Assembly: GCA_049969715.1 (NCBI GenBank)
Contig: JBMFOH010000021.1
Coordinates: 1-31,456 of the forward strand
Origin: JBMFOH01 sp049969715 [NCBI: bacterium]
GTDB taxonomy: Bacteria > DUMJ01
Length of the DNA: 31,456 bases
Direction of reading: 5' to 3'
How positions within the stretch are numbered: position 1 is the stretch's first letter; each line of letters starts with the position of its first letter. The position numbers and the translations under genes are program-made. Of the stretch, positions 6,541 through 24,866 are shown one piece after another. Under the pieces are notes generated by a model, which was not told where the DNA came from, did not search any database, and saw only the letters and a list, made by a program, of their open reading frames with translations.

Positions 6541-7119
6541 ATGGAAATAATTACGATTCTTTTAATAGCTATTGGGCTTGCTATGGACGCTCTTAGTGTG
6601 TCTATTACTAGTGGAATAACGATAAAAGAGATAAAGCTCGTTGATGCACTAAAGATTGGAGGCGCGTTTGGACTATTCCAGTTCATTATGCCGTTAATAG
6701 GATGGTTCGTTGGTTCAAGTCTAAGATGGTTAATATCAGGGATAGACCACTGGGTAGCATTTGGACTTTTAACTTTTATTGGTAGTAAAATGATTTATGA
6801 GTCTATAAAAGAAGACCCAGATAAAAAGAAGATAGATCCAAGACATAGTAGTACCTTACTTATCTTAGCAATTAGTACAAGTATAGATGCCTTAGCAGTA
6901 GGAATAGGCTTTTCTATTCTCAACATTGTAATCTTATATTCAGCAGTAATAATAGGGGTAGTAACATTTCTTCTTTCTTTTTTTGGAGTATTTGTTGGTA
7001 ACGGATTAAGACATCTACTAGAAAAGGCTAAAACGGAGATGATAGGCGGAATAATTCTGATAGGTATTGGAACAAAGATATTAATAGAGCATCTAACAAG
7101 ATCGAATCTAAAAATATAA
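6541..7119 (+). CDS. mntP: MntP-family manganese efflux pump (putative)
   Basis: A 192-residue membrane protein with six hydrophobic segments arranged as two related halves, as in MntP (formerly DUF204). The paired acidic motifs are present: GLAMDALSVSI with Asp16 in the first half and TSIDALAVGIGF with Asp116 in the second. The length matches the family (about 185-195). MntP exports Mn2+ across the cytoplasmic membrane. It begins 5 bases after the sugar permease stop without a convincing Shine-Dalgarno of its own, so it probably depends on translational coupling. No yybP-ykoY manganese riboswitch is possible here because there is no leader. Why manganese export sits with a CUT2 sugar importer is not clear. 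The stop codon lies inside the palindromic terminator shared with groEL. Confidence 0.88.
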   Translation: MEIITILLIAIGLAMDALSVSITSGITIKEIKLVDALKIGGAFGLFQFIMPLIGWFVGSSLRWLISGIDHWVAFGLLTFIGSKMIYESIKEDPDKKKIDPRHSSTLLILAISTSIDALAVGIGFSILNIVILYSAVIIGVVTFLLSFFGVFVGNGLRHLLEKAKTEMIGGIILIGIGTKILIEHLTRSNLKI

Positions 7120-7160: not shown

Positions 7161-8774
<1,614 letters not shown>

Positions 8775-8781
8775 TCACCTC

Positions 8782-9072
8782 CTACTCTTCAATAATAGCA
8801 AGAATATCTCTTTCGCTTAAAACAAGATACTCTTCATTCTCTATCTTTACTTCAGTTCCTGAATACTTAGAATAAAGAACCCTATCCCCCTCTTTCACCT
8901 GAAGAGGAACAAGTTGCCCATTATCTAACAACCTTCCCTGTCCTACTGCTAACACCTTACCTTGCTGAGGTTTTTCTTTAGCGGTATCTGGCAACACGAT
9001 ACCACTTTTTGTTTTCTCTTCTACCTCAATAGGTTTTACAAGTACTCTGTCTCCTAGTGGCTTTAATTTCAC
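8782..9072 (-). CDS. groES: Co-chaperonin GroES (Cpn10), heat-shock copy
   Basis: A 96-residue Cpn10 forming the heptameric lid of GroEL. The start is GTG at 9072 with AAAGGAGG 8 bases upstream, giving [14 protein letters not shown]. The mobile loop (about 18-33) carries the GroEL-binding tripeptide in [10 protein letters not shown]. The roof hairpin is the normal [11 protein letters not shown] type, and the C-terminus [10 protein letters not shown] is canonical. It is first in the groES-groEL operon under a consensus-like promoter and HrcA-type CIRCE operator. A second, more divergent GroES is encoded at 15311-15601. Confidence 0.97.
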
Positions 9073-9099: not shown

Positions 9100-9126
9100 T
9101 TAGCACTCTATAGGTTAGAGTGCTAA
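9100..9126 (-). promoter_or_regulatory. CIRCE operator (HrcA site) of groESL
   Basis: TTAGCACTC-N9-GAGTGCTAA is an exact match to the CIRCE consensus, with the 9-base spacer TATAGGTTA. It begins a base or two downstream of the expected transcription start and ends 28 bases before the groES start codon. By established knowledge HrcA represses here and is released under heat stress; hrcA itself is not in the window. Confidence 0.97.
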
Positions 9127-13481: not shown

Positions 13482-14279
13482 ATGGAAAAGAGATACTATT
13501 TTTCTGTTTTTACAAAGCCATGGCAGAAAATGCCAATTCCAAAGTTAGGAGAATTTATAAAGAGCCTAGGATTTGATGGGATAGAGTTTCCAGTACGTCC
13601 TGGATATCAAGTAGAGCCAGAAAATGTAAAAGAGGAACTACCTAAACTTGTAAAACAGTTAAAAGAGTTTGGATTAGAGGTTTATAGTATTGCAGGTCCA
13701 ACAGACGAAAAGACCTTTTCTGCCTGTAGAGAAGCTGGAATACCTATTATCCGAGTGATGTACACTGTAGGACCGGATGGTTATTTAGCCTCAGAAAAGA
13801 GGGCTCGAGAAGACCTAGATAAGGTTTTACCCTTATGCGAAAAATATGGGGTAAAGGTTGGAGTCCAGAATCACTATGGACCGCATATCGCCCCAAACTC
13901 TTCAGGACTTCTTCGCTTAGTTGAAAAGTATGACCCTAAATATATAGGAGTTATCTGGGATGCAGCACACAATGCGCTAAATGGAGAAGAGCCTGAATTA
14001 GGACTTGACATAGTATGGTCCTACCTATATATGGTAAATCTAAAGAATGCATTCTGGAGGAGGGTTACTGGACCAGAAGCAGAGGTTGTAAGGTGGGATG
14101 TATACTGGACAAATGGAAGGCAAGGCCTAGCAAACTGGCCAAGGGTAGCCAGATATCTCAAAGAGCGAAACTACAGAGGAGTTATATGTTTGACAGCAGA
14201 ATACACAGCTAAAGAAGATGTTGATAGACTTATAACTGAAGATATAAAATTTGCAAGGTCTCTATTCTTGGAGGGATGA
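13482..14279 (+). CDS. Sugar phosphate isomerase/epimerase-like TIM barrel (AP endonuclease 2 fold)
   Basis: A 265-residue protein of the xylose-isomerase-like TIM barrel superfamily, which includes ketose 3-epimerases and inosose dehydratases. Family marks are GFDGIEFPVRPG in the second strand (about 30-41), GVKVGVQNHYG near 125-135 and YIGVIWDAAHNAL near 155-167, where the Asp and His would bind metal, then the last-strand glutamate in ICLTAEYTA (about 247). The first metal ligand, often Glu, is Gln in VQNH, as in many members of the VQNH/LQNH subgroup. AGGAGGAAAGGA precedes the ATG. It ends one base before the ATG of the oxidoreductase, so translation is coupled. Together with that dehydrogenase it suggests an oxidation-epimerisation route for an unusual sugar or cyclitol. 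Confidence 0.87.
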   Translation: MEKRYYFSVFTKPWQKMPIPKLGEFIKSLGFDGIEFPVRPGYQVEPENVKEELPKLVKQLKEFGLEVYSIAGPTDEKTFSACREAGIPIIRVMYTVGPDGYLASEKRAREDLDKVLPLCEKYGVKVGVQNHYGPHIAPNSSGLLRLVEKYDPKYIGVIWDAAHNALNGEEPELGLDIVWSYLYMVNLKNAFWRRVTGPEAEVVRWDVYWTNGRQGLANWPRVARYLKERNYRGVICLTAEYTAKEDVDRLITEDIKFARSLFLEG

Positions 14280-14280
14280 G

Positions 14281-15252
14281 ATGAAGGATTCAAGAATTAG
14301 AGTTGCGTTTGTTGGCTGCGGAGAGATGGCTAACAGAGTCCATTATCCTTCCTTACTCTCTTTTGATGATGTTGAGATATCTGCCATATGTGACATCGAT
14401 GAGAAACGTTTAAATGAAGCAGGAAACAGATATAAGATTGAGAAACGGTATACTAATTATCAAAAGATGATTGAAGAAACTACCCCTGACGCTGTCTATG
14501 CTATTGGACAGCCTCATATAATGTATGATATATGGATGTGGTGTCTTGAACAGGGACTTAACTTATATATAGAAAAGCCAATGGGGATAACTATACATCA
14601 GGCTCGAAGTCTAGCTTATATGGCAGAGAAGAAAGGTTGCATTACCCAGGTAAGTTTTCAAAGGCGAGCAGTCCCTCTATTAGCAAAACTAAAGGAAGAA
14701 TGTCTCAAGAAAGGACCAATAACCCATGCAGTCTGTGAATTTTACAAGTACAATATAACCCCATATCTTCAGGCAAGAGACCATATGATGGATGATGGAG
14801 TTCATGCAATAGATACTCTTAGATGGATATGTGGTGGAGAGATAAAGAAGATTCTAAGTGTTACAAAGAGTGTTTTAGTTCCGGATATTAACTTTATATC
14901 TGCAATACTAGAGTTTAATAATGGTTCCATTGGAATTATGATAAACAGTTGGACAAGTGGGAAAAGAATCTTCAATGTAGAGATTCATTCTCCAGGAGCA
15001 TGGGCTGAGGGAGACCCAGAAGGTAAAGGTTATCTCTATCTAGAAGGAGATACTAAAGGTATAGAATACGATACAAAAGAGGTGGCAGGAAGCAATGAAT
15101 TCTATATCTATGCTGGGTTTCAAGCTAAGAACAGAGAATTTATTGATTGTATAAAGACAGGTAAGCAACCAAGCTCGAACTTCTCTGATGCAGTAAAAAC
15201 TATGGAGATAGCAGAAAAAATCTTAGCCAAGGCAATATTAGAAGATTCCTAA
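14281..15252 (+). CDS. Gfo/Idh/MocA-family NAD(P)-dependent oxidoreductase
   Basis: A 323-residue dehydrogenase. I choose the ATG at 14281, preceded by GGAGGG and directly following the TGA of the epimerase-like gene; a longer version from 14251 would add 10 unconserved residues. The Rossmann motif VAFVGCGEMANRVHYPSL is at about 8-25, the family EKP motif appears as YIEKPMGITIHQA near 100, and the substrate-domain helix with DDGVHAIDTLRWICGG near 178-193 carries the usual Asp-x3-His. The family oxidises or reduces sugars, sugar acids and inositols. It closes the operon that starts with the LacI-type regulator or with the binding protein, and the palindromic terminator at 15271 follows 18 bases later. 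Confidence 0.91.
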   Translation: MKDSRIRVAFVGCGEMANRVHYPSLLSFDDVEISAICDIDEKRLNEAGNRYKIEKRYTNYQKMIEETTPDAVYAIGQPHIMYDIWMWCLEQGLNLYIEKPMGITIHQARSLAYMAEKKGCITQVSFQRRAVPLLAKLKEECLKKGPITHAVCEFYKYNITPYLQARDHMMDDGVHAIDTLRWICGGEIKKILSVTKSVLVPDINFISAILEFNNGSIGIMINSWTSGKRIFNVEIHSPGAWAEGDPEGKGYLYLEGDTKGIEYDTKEVAGSNEFYIYAGFQAKNREFIDCIKTGKQPSSNFSDAVKTMEIAEKILAKAILEDS

Positions 15253-15270
15253 AAATCTTTATAAGATTCC

Positions 15271-15312
15271 AATTATAGGGGGCTTTGGCTGCAGCCAAAG
15301 CCCCCTATAATT
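15271..15312. terminator. Bidirectional terminator, 42-bp perfect palindrome between oxidoreductase and second groES
   Basis: A loop-less perfect palindrome with arms containing AATTATAGGGGGCTTTGGCT and its complement, centred on TGCA. It overlaps the stop codon of the minus-strand groES at 15311-15313. It separates two convergent operons. No long T-run flanks it on either side, so it may act by stem stability alone or with Rho. Confidence 0.82.
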
Positions 15313-15601
15313 ACTCTCTTATTACCGCTAAGATATCATTCTTCTGAATTATAAGGTACTTTTTACCCTTAACTTCTATTTCATCCCCAGTATACTTTGT
15401 AAAGATCACATGGTCTCCTACCTTTATCTTCTCTCTGAGATCCTCATCAGTACCTACCTCAATAACCTTTCCAACCCTCGGGGCTTCCCTTGCAGCTTCG
15501 GGGATATAAATCCCAGACTGAGTCTTTCCTTCCTCTTCTTCTCTCTCCAAAAGAACTCTGTCATCTAAAGGTTGTATCTTTTCAAGAGAAATATCTATCA
15601 T
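15311..15601 (-). CDS. Second GroES-like co-chaperonin (divergent Cpn10)
   Basis: A 96-residue Cpn10 paralogue of the protein at 8782-9072. It keeps the core KIQPLDDRVLLERE, a mobile loop with KTQSGIYIPEAA (IYI in place of IVL, still suited to bind GroEL), and the C-terminal strand NDILAVIRE. The roof hairpin is shorter and different (VGTDEDLREKIKVGD). The start has AAGGAGG 8 bases upstream. It has no partnered GroEL and lies 3 bases after a glutaredoxin-like gene, sharing its promoter. It could form homo-heptamers or mixed lids with altered specificity. No CIRCE precedes it; the shared promoter instead carries a CsoR/CstR-like palindrome, so its regulation probably differs from heat-shock control. 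Confidence 0.93.
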   Translation of the reverse strand: MIDISLEKIQPLDDRVLLEREEEEGKTQSGIYIPEAAREAPRVGKVIEVGTDEDLREKIKVGDHVIFTKYTGDEIEVKGKKYLIIQKNDILAVIRE

Positions 15602-15604
15602 CTT

Positions 15605-15856
15605 TTATACCTCCTTGTATTGATTCAATAGTTTCTCTAATAAGGGTTTATTAAAACCTACTACAGGGCGATTATTTATTAGAGTAACAGGAACACCCAT
15701 CTGTCCTGTTGTCTTTACCAAGTCATCTGCTGCCTTAGGGTTCTTCTCTACATCTACTTCATAAAACCTTATTCCCTTTTCCTTAAGGAATTGCTTCGTT
15801 GCTTTACACCACGGGCAATGAGATGTTGTAAATATAATAACCCTTGGTTGTGCCAT
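15605..15856 (-). CDS. Glutaredoxin-like thiol-disulfide protein
   Basis: An 83-residue thioredoxin-fold protein read from the ATG at 15856 (MAQPRVIIFTTSHCPWCKAT). A longer reading from 15874 adds six residues but lacks a ribosome site, while the chosen start has GGAGGCGAAAAGGAAT upstream. The redox motif Cys14-Pro-Trp-Cys17 sits at the start of the first helix, and the cis-proline stretch GQMGVPVTLI is at about 54-63, followed by RPVVGF. This is the NrdH/glutaredoxin-3-like group, which reduces disulfides or handles low-molecular-weight thiols in the cytoplasm. The second GroES starts 3 bases after its stop, so they are one operon. The promoter's -10 lies within a palindrome like those bound by CsoR/CstR sensors. 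Confidence 0.9.
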   Translation of the reverse strand: MAQPRVIIFTTSHCPWCKATKQFLKEKGIRFYEVDVEKNPKAADDLVKTTGQMGVPVTLINNRPVVGFNKPLLEKLLNQYKEV

Positions 15857-15897
15857 ATTCCTTTTCGCCTCCATATATCAATCAAAAGTCTTACAAT

Positions 15898-15914
15898 ATA
15901 CCCCTATAGGGTAT
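15898..15914. promoter_or_regulatory. CsoR/CstR-like operator ATACCCCTATAGGGTAT
   Basis: Inverted repeat ATACCC-CTATA-GGGTAT, 6-bp arms and a 5-base spacer. Operators of CsoR/CstR/RcnR-type repressors generally have TACCC...GGGTA arms, so Cu(I)- or persulfide-responsive repression is a reasonable inference. The -10 hexamer of the glutaredoxin/groES promoter (15908-15913) lies inside it. No csoR-like gene is in the window. Confidence 0.6.
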
Positions 15915-15936
15915 CATAAAATCAATAGGATGTCAA
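15908..15936 (-). promoter_or_regulatory. Promoter of the glutaredoxin-groES operon
   Basis: On the minus strand TTGACA (15931-15936) and TACCCT (15908-15913) are 17 bases apart. The -35 is perfect and the -10 keeps TA...T. The start would be near 15901, about 45 bases before the glutaredoxin start codon. Confidence 0.65.
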
Positions 15937-15978
15937 TAGAAATGTAGGAAATTTTCTTTAAAGATATAAAACTACCGA

Positions 15979-17790
15979 TTAGATAAACTCCCTTATAATT
16001 TTTCCAGCGATATCATATCTTTCAAATGGTGGCATCAGGTATATTCCGCCCACCATCTTTTTTATACTGTCTATTATCTCTAACGAGATCTCTATACCCT
16101 CTCTCAGTTGATCTTTAGAGCTATGCATCCTTTCTCTTATCTTCTTAGGAATAGATATTCCCGGCACTTCATTATGCAAAAATTCAGTATGTCTTGAACT
16201 TCTTAAGGGAAGAATTCCAACTAAGATTGGAGGTAGTTTAAAATCTATTTTCTCCAAGAATCTTTCTAAAATTTCCCTATCATATATCGGCTGAGTCTCT
16301 ACAAAATTAGCTCCATTCTCAATCTTTCGTTCTAATCTTTCGATCTCTCTATCTAAATCTTCGGCATTAGGATTTACAGCAACCCCTATAGTAAAGTTTG
16401 TTGCCAGCCCTATAGGATTCCCCATATAGTCTGTACCATTGTTAAGTCTATTCATTATCATAACCAGTCCTTCTGAATTTACATCAAAGACAGGTTTTGC
16501 CTGTGGATGGTCTCCTATTGATGGAGGATCTCCTGTCAAAGCCAAAATATTCTTTATCCCTAAAGCTGCAGCACCTAAAAGTTCGGACTGAAGCCCTATA
16601 AGGTTTCTGTCCCTACAGGTAAAGTGAAGTATAGATTCCATATTCAGCTCTTCTTTAAATATATGAGCTAGAGCTATAGGAGAGATCCTTACCCTAGCCA
16701 TTGGAGAATCCGAAATATTTACAGCATCTGCTCCAGCTCTTTTTAAAAGTCTTACCCCCTCTTTCACCTTCTCAAGTTCTATCCCTTTAGGGGGACTTAT
16801 CTCCACAGAGAATAAGAACTTTTTGCCAAGCTTCTTGGAGAATTCTGAAGAGGTATTTTTTCTTATGATCCCTATCTTCTCCTCTACTATCTCTTCTGTT
16901 TGGATATCTATTGAAATATCCTTTCTAAGGGTCTCTTTGATACTGGCAATATGCCTCGGTGACGTACCACAGCACCCACCAACTATCTTCGCCCCATACT
17001 TTATATATTCTTTTACAAAACTAGCAAAATACTCCTCTCCAGTAGAGTAAACAAGTCTTCCTTGAACGAGCTGAGGATATCCTGCATTTGGCTGTACAGA
17101 AAAAGGTCCTTTAAGATCTAGGGCAAATAACTTGAGGGCCTCTAGCGTTTGAAGTGGACCATTTCCACAGTTCAAACCAATTACGTCAACCTTTATATCT
17201 TTTAGAAAGTCTATTACTCTATAGATGTCTTCCCCTAGAGATGTACTCATTTCTTTTGAAAATGAGAACTGAACTATAGTAGGTATATCGATAGAAAGCT
17301 TATCTAATAGCTCGAGTAGAATCTCTACATCTCTTGTTGATGGCATCGTCTCTAAGATTAATCCATCTGGCCCTTCTTCTATAAGACTTATAAGCTGCCC
17401 CTTGTATATACTAGAAGCTCTCTTTTCATCTATTTCAAATCCTTCTCCTATAGGCTTTCCGATAGGTCCGATACTGCCAATTATATAAACATTACCTCCA
17501 GACACTTCTTTTGCAAGCCTTACTCCTTCTTTATTGATCTTTTCAACTAGGTCTTCATACCCCCAAGCTTTCAATTTAAATTCATTGGCTCCGAAGGTAT
17601 TTGTTTCAATACAGTCAGAGCCTGCCTCTATATATTCTCTATGAATAGACAGAACCATATCTGGCTTTATAATGTTTGCATATTCAATGGGCTTGTCTTG
17701 AGGATATCCCCTATTTAAAAGCTCTGTACCAGTTGCTCCATCGAATATTATTACATCTTTTTCTCTCAAAAACTCGCGGAAACTTTTCAC
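15979..17790 (-). CDS. Bifunctional homocysteine S-methyltransferase / 5,10-methylenetetrahydrofolate reductase (YitJ-like)
   Basis: A 603-residue fusion. Residues 1 to about 290 are a homocysteine S-methyltransferase barrel with the zinc cysteines Cys208 (GLNCGNGP), Cys273 and Cys274 (VGGCCGTSPRH). Residues about 318 to 600 are a methylenetetrahydrofolate reductase (MetF), with FLFSVEISPPKG, ILALTGDPP and the FAD/folate-binding NFVETQPIYD. The same architecture occurs in Bacillus YitJ. It would make 5-methyl-THF and methylate homocysteine, or work with the MetH-like protein at 23145. The start is a GTG at 17790 with only a weak ribosome site, 16 bases after the AraD-like gene, so it is probably the last gene of the kinase-GH42-epimerase operon although functionally unrelated to it. 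Confidence 0.93.
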   Translation of the reverse strand: MKSFREFLREKDVIIFDGATGTELLNRGYPQDKPIEYANIIKPDMVLSIHREYIEAGSDCIETNTFGANEFKLKAWGYEDLVEKINKEGVRLAKEVSGGNVYIIGSIGPIGKPIGEGFEIDEKRASSIYKGQLISLIEEGPDGLILETMPSTRDVEILLELLDKLSIDIPTIVQFSFSKEMSTSLGEDIYRVIDFLKDIKVDVIGLNCGNGPLQTLEALKLFALDLKGPFSVQPNAGYPQLVQGRLVYSTGEEYFASFVKEYIKYGAKIVGGCCGTSPRHIASIKETLRKDISIDIQTEEIVEEKIGIIRKNTSSEFSKKLGKKFLFSVEISPPKGIELEKVKEGVRLLKRAGADAVNISDSPMARVRISPIALAHIFKEELNMESILHFTCRDRNLIGLQSELLGAAALGIKNILALTGDPPSIGDHPQAKPVFDVNSEGLVMIMNRLNNGTDYMGNPIGLATNFTIGVAVNPNAEDLDREIERLERKIENGANFVETQPIYDREILERFLEKIDFKLPPILVGILPLRSSRHTEFLHNEVPGISIPKKIRERMHSSKDQLREGIEISLEIIDSIKKMVGGIYLMPPFERYDIAGKIIREFI

Positions 17791-17806
17791 TTATTCTACT
17801 CTCTAA

Positions 17807-18451
17807 CTATTTCTGTCCATAATATTTTTGATGCCACTCGTAAGCCCTTTTCACTTCTTCATGGGGTATCTCTTGAGGCTTTCCTTTAAGGAGAGCCAGA
17901 TGCACTGTCTTAGCTATATCTTCAATCATCACCGCAATCTTCAATGCCTCAGAAGGACTTTTACCTATAGTAAATACCCCATGATTTTTCACTAGTACCG
18001 CCGGACTATTCCCTATAACTCTCAAGATTTCCTTTCCTATCGCTTCAGAACCAACAGGGGCATAATCTGTGCAGGGGACAGGACCACCAAAATCATCAGC
18101 CATAGCAGTAAGGTATACAGGAATAGGCCAACCTAGAGCGGCAAAACTTGTAGCATAGTTAGAATGAGTATGGGTAATTCCCATTACATCTGGTCTGTGT
18201 TTATAGATATAGAGATGTGTATAGGTATCAACAGATGGCTTATGGACCCCCTCTACTATATTCCCTTCTATGTCTACCACTACCATATCCTCTGGTTTCA
18301 TCGTTCTATAACTCATTCCACTCGGTTTTATAACAACATAATCTGTTTCTTTATCTCTGCCACTTACATTGCCACTAAACATAGTAACCAGTCTATTCCT
18401 AGAAAGCTCTAGATTCATTTCGCATACTTCTTCTTTTAATTTCTCTAGCAT
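17807..18451 (-). CDS. araD: L-ribulose-5-phosphate 4-epimerase-like class II aldolase (AraD type)
   Basis: A 214-residue zinc enzyme of the class II aldolase/adducin family. It aligns better with AraD than with L-fuculose-phosphate aldolase: the start MLEKLKEEVCEMNLELSRNR, GNVSGRD, KPSGMSY with Lys42, HTHS with His94 and His96, NHG with His157, and the C-terminal KYYGQK. The two residues needed for 4-epimerisation in E. coli AraD (Asp120, Tyr229) correspond to Asp119 in TAMADDF and Tyr211. I infer conversion of L-ribulose 5-phosphate (or a related ketopentose phosphate) to D-xylulose 5-phosphate. It starts 3 bases after the GH42 stop; AGAGGTG at the end of that gene is its ribosome site. AraA (arabinose isomerase) is not in the window. 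Other 4-epimerases (UlaF, SgbE type) or an aldolase remain possible. Confidence 0.82.
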   Translation of the reverse strand: MLEKLKEEVCEMNLELSRNRLVTMFSGNVSGRDKETDYVVIKPSGMSYRTMKPEDMVVVDIEGNIVEGVHKPSVDTYTHLYIYKHRPDVMGITHTHSNYATSFAALGWPIPVYLTAMADDFGGPVPCTDYAPVGSEAIGKEILRVIGNSPAVLVKNHGVFTIGKSPSEALKIAVMIEDIAKTVHLALLKGKPQEIPHEEVKRAYEWHQKYYGQK

Positions 18452-22045: not shown

Positions 22046-23170
22046 GTGATAGAAATGCCTGCTAAAGCTATTACCTTACTTATAAAGCCTACATCTGCAG
22101 ATTGTAATCTAGCATGTAGGTACTGCTTTTATTCTCCAAAAGAGAGTCTATACGGTGGGAATAAGAGGATGGATACTAATACCTTAGAGGTACTTATCTA
22201 TAAAGCACTCTCGGTAGCAGAAGAGGTGACCTTCTCTTGGCAAGGTGGAGAACCTACTCTAATGGGACTTCCCTTTTATGAAAAGGTGATAGAACTCGAG
22301 AGGTCATATCAAAAGAAGGGACAGAGGATAATGAATACACTTCAAACAAATGGTATATTGCTAGACGAATCTTGGGCTATATTTCTGAAAAAGAATAGTT
22401 TCTTAGTGGGTTTAAGCATGGATGGGCCATCAGATATCCATAATGAATATAGGGTTACCAAGAATGGAGAACCAACCCACCATATAGTTCTTAGTAAGCT
22501 TAGATTGCTCCAAAAATATGACGTAGACTTTAATGTGCTTACTGTTGTAACTGATAAGAACAGTAGAAAGCCAGAGGCTTTATTCAGATACTTCCAGGAT
22601 TTGGGGGTACGGTATATGCAATTTATTCCCTGTCTAGAAAGGGACAAAGAGGGTAAGATTGCATCATTCTCAGTAGACCCTACAAACTATGGCAGATTCC
22701 TAGTCGGTATGTTTGATAGATGGTATAACAATGGTAAGCCTGAATACTATGTTAGAGAATATGAAGAATGGCTTATAGGATATGCATATGGAGTTAATCC
22801 CTGTATGTTCAGCCCCTACTGTCAGGGTTCGCTAGTTATAGAACACAACGGAGATATATATCCTTGTGACTTTTTTGTAGAACCAAGGTGGCTCCTCGGA
22901 AATATAAAGGAAAACTCCCTAGAAGAGATATATGATAGTGATCTATATAAAAGTTTTAGTAAAAGAAAGAATGATGTAGATGAAAGATGCAAAAACTGTA
23001 GATGGCTTGAACTCTGTTGGGGAGGATGCCCTAAGTTTAGAATAGATAAAAGCGGGATGGAGATAAAATATAGCTACTTCTGTCCATCCTATCAGAGATT
23101 CTTTGAGCATTCGGATAGGTATTTTAGAAACCTACTCCAAAGATTTAGTGGCTCGGGGCGAATCTCCTAG
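22046..23170 (+). CDS. Radical SAM/SPASM protein, anaerobic sulfatase-maturating enzyme type
   Basis: A 374-residue iron-sulfur enzyme. The radical-SAM cluster motif CNLACRYC (Cys20, Cys24, Cys27) is near the N-terminus, followed by FSWQGGEPTLMG and GLSMDGPSDIHNEYR, both typical of anaerobic sulfatase maturases. The C-terminal SPASM region holds two more clusters: CMFSPYCQG, IYPCDFF, RCKNCRWLELCWGGCPKF and YFCPSY. Such enzymes oxidise a Cys or Ser of sulfatases to formylglycine in the cytoplasm; related SPASM enzymes modify other peptides. The start is GTG at 22046, with AAGGAG 12 bases upstream; an ATG at 22055 is an alternative. No sulfatase is in the window. Its 3' end overlaps the convergent MetH-like gene by 26 bases. 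Confidence 0.9.
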   Translation: MIEMPAKAITLLIKPTSADCNLACRYCFYSPKESLYGGNKRMDTNTLEVLIYKALSVAEEVTFSWQGGEPTLMGLPFYEKVIELERSYQKKGQRIMNTLQTNGILLDESWAIFLKKNSFLVGLSMDGPSDIHNEYRVTKNGEPTHHIVLSKLRLLQKYDVDFNVLTVVTDKNSRKPEALFRYFQDLGVRYMQFIPCLERDKEGKIASFSVDPTNYGRFLVGMFDRWYNNGKPEYYVREYEEWLIGYAYGVNPCMFSPYCQGSLVIEHNGDIYPCDFFVEPRWLLGNIKENSLEEIYDSDLYKSFSKRKNDVDERCKNCRWLELCWGGCPKFRIDKSGMEIKYSYFCPSYQRFFEHSDRYFRNLLQRFSGSGRIS

Positions 23171-24866
23171 TATACTCGCGAAGAGGTATCCTTCCAGCAA
23201 GGACCTGAGAGGCTATAAGCGTATCCATAAGGTCAGGGTCCAAAGGATTTAATATGACACTATCAACACCGCTAAATACTGCCATACTTAAAAAGGACCT
23301 ATTTAGAATGGTCCTCTTTGGAAGCCCGAAGGATACATTGCTTAAGCCAATTATAGTAGGAAATCCTTTATTACTAAAGTATTCTATTGCTTTTAAGGTC
23401 TCCTTAATACTTTCAGGATAGACACTCACAGGAAAGACAAGTGGATCAAATATAATACCACTTCTGCCTAAGGGTTCTAGTTTTGAAAGGAACTTTTCTC
23501 CGTTCCCTATCCTTTCCTCTGCAGTAGAAGGATAATTAGCGCTTCCAGAGGTAAGAGCTACTGCCAATGCCCCATACTTTTTTACAAGTCCTATAAGTTT
23601 TTCCTTATTAGGCTCCAAAGATATAGAATTTACCAGGGCTCTACCTGGGTACAATTTTAACGCAGTCTCTAAAACCTCTGGGTCTTGTATATCAAAGACC
23701 AAAGGAACATCTCCAAACTGCTGAAAACCATATATAAGCTCTGTCAGAAGAGGGGTTTCGTCAACCCCAGGTAAAGAGAGATGAACATCTACTGCCTTGG
23801 CTCCAGACCTTACCTGTTCCCTTCCTAGCTCTATTAAACCTTCTACATCCTTATTTTCTACAAGAATCTTACCATCCTCAGTATAAGAATTAATCTTTTC
23901 CCCTATAACAGTTACTGGTAGAGACCTATCTATCTGTATAAACTTGGTCTTAGAGGTAAATGCAGTAATATTACCCTTATCTGTAAGGACCCTATCAATA
24001 TTACTTATAGCATTTCTTATAGCCCTTGTATGCTCTGGGGTAGAACCACAGCAAGAACCAACAATACTTGCACCAAGTTGGATGTACTTTACAGCAAAAT
24101 CAGCCATCTTCTCTGGTGTTTCTAGATATATAAGTCTTCCATCCTCAATTACAGGCATCCCAGCATTAGGCTGAATACTGATAAATGGAACACCTGAAAT
24201 AATCATCCTTTCTAACACTTTATATAAGCCTTCAGACCCCATACTGCAATTTGCCCCAACAACATCCGCTCCTAGACTCCATAGAACCAATGCTGCTACT
24301 TCAGGTGGGGTTCCTGTAACTGTCCTAAGGTTTTCATCAAAACTCATCTGGCATATTACAGGAAGGCTTATATTCTCTTTACAGGCAAGTAAAGCAATCC
24401 TAGCCTCCTGAAGGTCGGTCATTGTCTCTATAATTATTGCATCTACCCCCCCTGCCTCTAGTGCCAAGGCTTGTTCCTTAAAGGCATTATAGGCAGATTC
24501 AAAGGTCAAATCACCTAACGGATAGAGCATCTTTCCCGTAGGTCCTATAGAACCAGCTACAAAGGCATTATCTCCTGCCACCTTACGGGCTAATCTCGCT
24601 CCTTCAAGGTTTATATCCCTTACCCTATCCTCTAGACGATAAGAGGAAAGTCTAATCCTATTTGCTCCAAAGGTATTCGTCTCTATACAGTTAGCACCTG
24701 CCTCTAGGTAAAGTCTATGTACCTCTTCAACTACCTCTGGCTTTAATAGATTCCACTCTTCAGGACAACTGCCCGCGGTAAGACCATACTCCATTAGCAT
24801 CGTTCCCATAGCCCCATCAAATACAAGTATCCTTTCTTTCAAAACTTCAAGAAATGAGTATTTCAT
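23145..24866 (-). CDS. MetH-like protein: homocysteine methyltransferase plus pterin-binding module, no cobalamin domain
   Basis: A 573-residue protein with the first two modules of cobalamin-dependent methionine synthase. Residues 1 to about 290 are the homocysteine barrel with zinc cysteines Cys207 (GANCSMG), Cys272 and Cys273 (GSCCGSTPEH). Residues about 318-565 are a pterin-binding (methyl-THF) barrel with VIGEKINSY, AVDVHLSLPG and IIGLSNVSFGLP. The chain then ends; there is no cobalamin-binding (DxHxxG) or reactivation domain, and the next DNA is the convergent radical-SAM gene. It would need a separate corrinoid protein in order to move methyl groups. It is the last gene of the rplU operon; its start overlaps rsfS by 20 bases, with AAGGTG upstream. 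The clean module-boundary end argues against a broken gene. Confidence 0.9.
   Translation of the reverse strand: MKYSFLEVLKERILVFDGAMGTMLMEYGLTAGSCPEEWNLLKPEVVEEVHRLYLEAGANCIETNTFGANRIRLSSYRLEDRVRDINLEGARLARKVAGDNAFVAGSIGPTGKMLYPLGDLTFESAYNAFKEQALALEAGGVDAIIIETMTDLQEARIALLACKENISLPVICQMSFDENLRTVTGTPPEVAALVLWSLGADVVGANCSMGSEGLYKVLERMIISGVPFISIQPNAGMPVIEDGRLIYLETPEKMADFAVKYIQLGASIVGSCCGSTPEHTRAIRNAISNIDRVLTDKGNITAFTSKTKFIQIDRSLPVTVIGEKINSYTEDGKILVENKDVEGLIELGREQVRSGAKAVDVHLSLPGVDETPLLTELIYGFQQFGDVPLVFDIQDPEVLETALKLYPGRALVNSISLEPNKEKLIGLVKKYGALAVALTSGSANYPSTAEERIGNGEKFLSKLEPLGRSGIIFDPLVFPVSVYPESIKETLKAIEYFSNKGFPTIIGLSNVSFGLPKRTILNRSFLSMAVFSGVDSVILNPLDPDLMDTLIASQVLAGRIPLREYTRRFAPSH

Follow-up and report, generated by a model that had tools for sequence, protein, structure and literature searches.

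A glutaredoxin gene paired with a second, short-dome GroES gene behind a CsoR/CstR-like operator candidate

GroES is usually regarded as a single constant lid that is made together with GroEL. A 31,456-nucleotide contig of the bacterium JBMFOH01 sp049969715 (JBMFOH010000021.1; this whole stretch is referred to as the window) raises the question of what a second GroES gene may be doing apart from groESL, directly behind a glutaredoxin gene (grx) and a palindrome that resembles the operators of CsoR/CstR-family repressors. The reading that we prefer, with a confidence slightly short of even, is that grx-groES2 is a conserved module which in this organism would provide a second lid, placed behind a CsoR/CstR-family operator, for conditions of thiol attack and repair.

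The gene pair and the dome of GroES2

The grx gene is located at 15605–15856 on the minus strand and encodes a YruB-family dithiol glutaredoxin of 83 amino acids, counted from the likely start, in which the dithiol CXXC motif is present as CPWC. The product scores 90.5 bits against TIGR02196 (YruB glutaredoxin, cut-off 88.55) and also matches PF00462. The start is probably at 15856 and not at the ATG at 15874, because several homologues begin at the former position. The groES2 gene follows at 15311–15601 on the same strand, leaving three bases between the grx stop at 15605 and the groES2 start at 15601, and the open reading frame coordinates thus bear out the two-gene arrangement given in a preliminary description of the locus; the two genes would be co-transcribed. 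The 96-residue GroES2 scores 99.9 against NF001531 (GroES, cut-off 96) and 100.8 bits against PF00166 (Cpn10 domain, cut-off 21.1). Its mobile loop, identified by sequence only, reads GIYIP in the alignment, a mobile loop with a hydrophobic triad being a feature of GroES/Cpn10 proteins.

The same description was correct in calling this gene a second GroES. The first copy, groES1 (8782–9072, minus strand, with a GTG start read from the sequence), encodes a canonical GroES with a full dome segment and forms groESL with groEL (7161–8768, minus strand), the product of which presumably works with GroES1 and GroES2 alike. The best match to this groEL per genome has 61–65% identity in 10 of the 12 genomes searched. 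Upstream of groESL lies a perfect CIRCE element at 9100–9126; with up to four mismatches allowed it is the only CIRCE in the window, and none was found before grx-groES2. Since this element marks groESL, groES2 is likely to encode a second lid that is controlled differently. The two proteins share the Cpn10 family and the mobile loop, whereas the dome segment of GroES2 is six residues shorter than that of GroES1 (11 versus 17) and contains TDEDL, and groES2 has a glutaredoxin partner but, unlike groESL, neither an adjoining groEL nor a CIRCE. GroES2 thus lacks the full canonical dome, which is not required of all GroES members.

The shortened dome segment is common to the glutaredoxin-linked proteins. 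All 42 distinct glutaredoxin-linked GroES sequences (window included, identical sequences merged; a set distinct from the 42 other loci that were examined for sites and neighbouring genes) show G-T/N-D/S-D/E-D/E-L/M/V in this segment, compared with one of 29 GroEL-linked sequences, at locus L170. A regular expression returned another loop length, or none, for five of the 42, and by reading these also have 11 residues. In a tree that kept the dome columns, GroES2 falls in a set of 37 rows that includes 35 glutaredoxin-linked ones (support 95/87, from a bootstrap that had not settled), and in a tree without these columns it falls in a set of 31 rows, 30 of them glutaredoxin-linked (96/82). The canonical rows came from Spirochaetota and the window only, and without the dome columns the full split between short-dome and canonical proteins was not recovered, the best partition (89/68) having four rows misplaced. 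The five rows nearest to GroES2 with the dome columns kept are L163, L169, L166, L165 and L171, all of which except L165 adjoin genes for CoA-disulfide-reductase-like proteins. In fold, GroES2 matches Thermus Cpn10 (1wnr) with Z 12.3. The phage T4 co-chaperonin gp31, also a lid with the GroES fold, matches less closely (Z 9.6–9.8, 18–19% identity). No dome shape is claimed from the AlphaFold model of GroES2 because the model is middling, with a mean pLDDT of 75.7 and values of 47 and 50 for residues 21–40. A separate observation concerns another genome with the pair (G014), whose second GroES, on the minus strand of L129 from about position 1492, has a long dome segment that contains two adjacent cysteines.

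Recurrence of the pair and the number of lids

Linkage of grx to groES across relatives, which the preliminary description had proposed to compare, recurs in several distant groups. The loci in this comparison are best matches and not a random draw. One genome scan gave 29 glutaredoxin loci, with groES directly downstream in 10 and in none of the 13 from Bacilli. In the Kapabacteria-type class (the class of genome G011), where glutaredoxin matches at E<=1e-12 were counted in 149 genomes, 45 of 47 matches are followed by groES on the same strand, in 45 of 46 genomes and with a median gap of 24 bases between the aligned parts. This count sets 47 GroES places, selected among the GroES matches listed and mainly from genomes with a glutaredoxin match, against all 47 glutaredoxin places. 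Conversely, a glutaredoxin precedes 29 of the 30 top GroES matches of the class. Chance linkage is rejected by the 45/47 figure. The pair is also present in 7 of 9 genomes of the phylum of G007 (in the remaining two the GroES gene sits at the end of a contig), in 5 of 30 fetched loci of Spirochaetota (glutaredoxin match in 76 of 247 genomes) and in one of 30 fetched glutaredoxin loci of the phylum of G009 (L052, Aminicenantes; glutaredoxin match in 82 of 198 genomes). Five further Aminicenantes glutaredoxin loci (L010–L014) showed no adjoining groES. As a control, the 30 best-scoring Cpn10 loci from Spirochaetota were inspected, and none adjoins a glutaredoxin match. A recognizable GroES lineage is coupled to glutaredoxin in distant groups, namely the Kapabacteria-type class, Spirochaetota, Aminicenantes and the phylum of G007. 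No published description of such a pair was found in the titles and abstract starts searched, although full texts may mention one. Derivation of groES2 from a close phage or plasmid relative was also considered and rejected, as all matches in both collections have less than 60% identity, the top-ranked ones 43.4%; window positions 14000–18000 gave no plasmid match.

The number of lids per genome differs among these groups. A Cpn10 search of 18 genomes, largely draft assemblies in which a second copy may have been missed, found exactly one match in 16, two in one and none in one, and in 13 of the 16 single-GroES genomes the glutaredoxin-linked protein is the GroES found. Because it is the only one found there, it cannot be a mere stress accessory in those 13 genomes, and to this extent the earlier idea of a stress-tied co-chaperonin is not supported. 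These counts suggest another explanation, in which the short-dome protein is simply another GroES lineage and a general alternative lid, the glutaredoxin is an old operon partner, and there is no refolding dedicated to stress; the short-dome GroES would be the sole GroES of several groups and the window organism would hold both lineages. In line with this explanation, no GroES match was found at the groEL loci (L033–L043) of ten genomes that belong to this set or are related to it, although some of these loci are cut at contig ends. Short-dome proteins that lack a glutaredoxin, either beside groEL (L170, L211) or elsewhere (L114, L212–L214), fit it as well. It is nevertheless rather unlikely in our judgment, since the pair is kept in 45 of 46 genomes of the Kapabacteria-type class, 38 of these 45 having, like the window, at least two GroES matches among the matches listed, since it adjoins thiol and sulfur genes in two groups, and since the window copy has a rare operator-like site of its own.

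The operator-like palindrome

The palindrome ATACCCCTATAGGGTAT lies at 15898–15914, upstream of grx, and resembles a CsoR/CstR-family operator with TAC-X9-GTA spacing. It covers the −10 hexamer TACCCT (15908–15913), as had been described, and therefore overlaps the expected −10 position. The promoter reported there, TTGACA-N17-TACCCT, stands in part: the −35 box TTGACA (15931–15936, minus strand) is good and the 17-base gap is present, but TACCCT matches three of the six −10 consensus positions, so that the −10 is weak and not established and the exact promoter is tentative. The ATACCC-N5-GGGTAT arrangement occurs once in the window, compared with 0.001 expected per window in 1000 dinucleotide shuffles, and not at all in 998,052 bases of other loci. 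When up to three mismatches are allowed, the 15-mer is no rarity, with 2 occurrences against an expectation of 1.87. PMC3902906 gives the type-2 CsoR consensus as ATATACCCCTNAGGGGTATAT, with conserved positions 3–8 and 14–19 and the dyad TAC-X9-GTA. The palindrome agrees with this consensus at all 12 conserved positions and at 16 of the 20 defined ones, the next best window site reaching 14. The ATACCC and GGGTAT arms and the spacing are those of the type-2 operator of Streptomyces lividans csoR/copZA in the same paper. That operator precedes copper genes, whereas the site in the window precedes grx-groES2 and its repressor is predicted.

The spacing of the palindrome bears on the effector. 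CstR and sulfane-sulfur CsoR regulons (Staphylococcus aureus cst and Streptomyces coelicolor ScCsoR) use the same family of sites, ATACC..GGTAT, and PMC7533328 gives the site of the sulfane-sulfur-sensing ScCsoR as ATACC-N6-GGTAT, which is X8 and 16 base pairs (bp) long. The window site, at 17 bp, has one extra central base and does not fit this pattern. According to PMC10318464, adding or removing one base between the repeats weakened the binding of another CsoR-family protein, TTHA1953, about 10- to 15-fold. The X9 spacing thus appears to favour a copper-type CsoR site without settling the effector. A special case of the preferred reading follows from these comparisons, namely a Cu(I)-responsive CsoR operator serving copper stress, with no role for sulfane sulfur at this locus. 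This is possible but doubtful: a Pfam scan of 20 window proteins showed no copper gene, the contexts of the relatives are those of sulfur and thiol metabolism, and the contrast between X8 and X9 is drawn from ScCsoR and not from CstR itself.

The palindrome may also not be a CsoR-family site at all, with an unrelated regulator or nothing binding to it. The 20 scanned window proteins include no CsoR-family match, no repressor was seen, and such a site does not recur near the pair in the 42 other loci. This explanation is quite improbable given that every conserved position is matched, that the chance expectation is so low and that the site is placed within the promoter region of grx-groES2. The earlier assignment to a CsoR/CstR-like operator is upheld by the consensus match but not by the relatives, as no such site was detected close to grx in the 42 other loci. 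Another element, TTTCATC..GATGAAAA, which visual inspection had suggested upstream of grx at some loci of the Kapabacteria-type class, was dropped, because a pattern search recovered it at that position in L174 and L179 only.

Thiol and sulfur neighbourhoods and a possible repair role

Thiol or sulfur genes adjoin the pair in 13 of 28 loci of the Kapabacteria-type class; the immediate upstream neighbour is a CoA-disulfide-reductase-like gene in 6 loci and an OsmC-like gene in 7. At L190 the pair is part of a long gene run that contains two genes for ArsR-family regulators and genes for thioredoxin-like, CoA-disulfide-reductase-like, SQR-like, DUF302, OsmC and rhodanese proteins. ArsR-family genes, some encoding cysteines, stand beside the pair downstream at L082 and L085 (the latter identified by eye), divergently at L016 and upstream at L190, and represent a different sensor family from that of the window site. 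No effector can be read from the ArsR proteins of L082 and L016 because many solved ArsR proteins match them alike, including 6o8k and its kin, which are SqrR according to a legend that names 6O8N. In Psychrobacillus (L020) a YruB-like glutaredoxin (83.7 bits, under the 88.55 cut-off) stands without GroES in a cst-type cluster with several N6 sites and with TusA-, rhodanese-, DsrE- and OsmC-like genes, the names of which come from matches under the NCBIfam cut-offs. The best solved chain for its CstR-like regulator, in which both cysteines are kept, is 7mq1 (E 4.3e-19); 7mq2 has the same sequence and is named CstR in PMC9774590. A YruB-like glutaredoxin is thus found in one CstR-type cluster in Psychrobacillus, whereas no GroES match was found in the Psychrobacillus loci. 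Six Sporosarcina grx genes (L023–L028), also without GroES, each have ATACC-N6-GGTAT about 60 bases upstream.

In the reading that we prefer, the YruB-type dithiol glutaredoxin and the distinct short-dome GroES would be produced together as a two-gene module, which would serve as a second lid for the sole GroEL seen, separately from the CIRCE-marked groESL. A CsoR/CstR-family repressor would act through the palindrome, so that the pair would be expressed once thiols come under attack by Cu(I) or sulfane sulfur. On the damaged proteins the glutaredoxin may then reduce disulfides, persulfides or thiols blocked by copper, and GroEL with GroES2 may refold these proteins. Several results weigh against this reading. 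No CsoR-type site was found within 180–260 bases upstream of grx in any of the 42 other glutaredoxin-GroES loci, contrary to the expectation that the palindrome would be conserved, and the sole ATACC-N6-GGTAT upstream of such a pair lies about 510 bases away, at L007. A search for CsoR-family genes detected them in 2 of 11 genomes, 10 of which carry the pair, and in 6 of 24 genomes of a second set; as the other 9 and 18 genomes yielded none, control by CsoR can be no more than a local addition. The promoter scan, which requires four matching −10 positions, did not list TACCCT, and the X9 spacing of copper CsoR sites conflicts with the sulfur context of the relatives. The thiol contexts of the class loci come from two groups of related species, and short-dome GroES and glutaredoxin also occur apart: besides the unlinked short-dome proteins mentioned above, the glutaredoxin lacks a GroES in 25 of 30 Spirochaetota loci, 29 of 30 loci of the phylum of G009 and all 13 Bacilli loci, the unpaired proteins of the first two being mostly more distant glutaredoxins. 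The 13 genomes in which the glutaredoxin-linked GroES is the only one found do not suit a second lid. GroES2 has no cysteine, so that no thiol exchange with the glutaredoxin is suggested. Dependence of the grx-groES linkage on CsoR was rejected, since sites and CsoR genes were mostly not found in relatives with the pair.

The sequence features reported in the preliminary description are confirmed overall and its interpretation is partly supported. Of its link to copper or sulfur/thiol stress, the thiol and sulfur context recurs in relatives, the choice between copper and sulfur is undecided, and the mechanism as a whole is plausible but unproven. A wider proposal, which we consider unlikely, is that the remodelled dome (GTDEDL) and the lasting partnership with glutaredoxin would make the GroEL chamber a compartment for refolding around cysteines. 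Its clients would be proteins with persulfidated, disulfide-bonded or copper-blocked cysteines, and its sensors would differ by group, with a CsoR/CstR-type site here and ArsR-family genes elsewhere. The glutaredoxin-linked GroES is the only lid found in some groups and stands beside sulfur-detoxification genes in others. If it does function as a lid, the work of the chaperonin would be linked not only to heat but also to cysteine chemistry, and the role of the dome would be testable with two natural lids of one organism.

Other features of the window were noted. A hairpin at 15271–15312 lies between the convergent groES2 and Gfo/Idh-type genes and has a terminator score on the plus strand only. 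Two homocysteine S-methyltransferase proteins are encoded at 15979–17790 and 23145–24866, one fused to a methylenetetrahydrofolate reductase domain and the other to a pterin-binding domain. A gene for an MntP-type manganese efflux pump (6541–7119) directly follows a sugar-type ABC transporter set.
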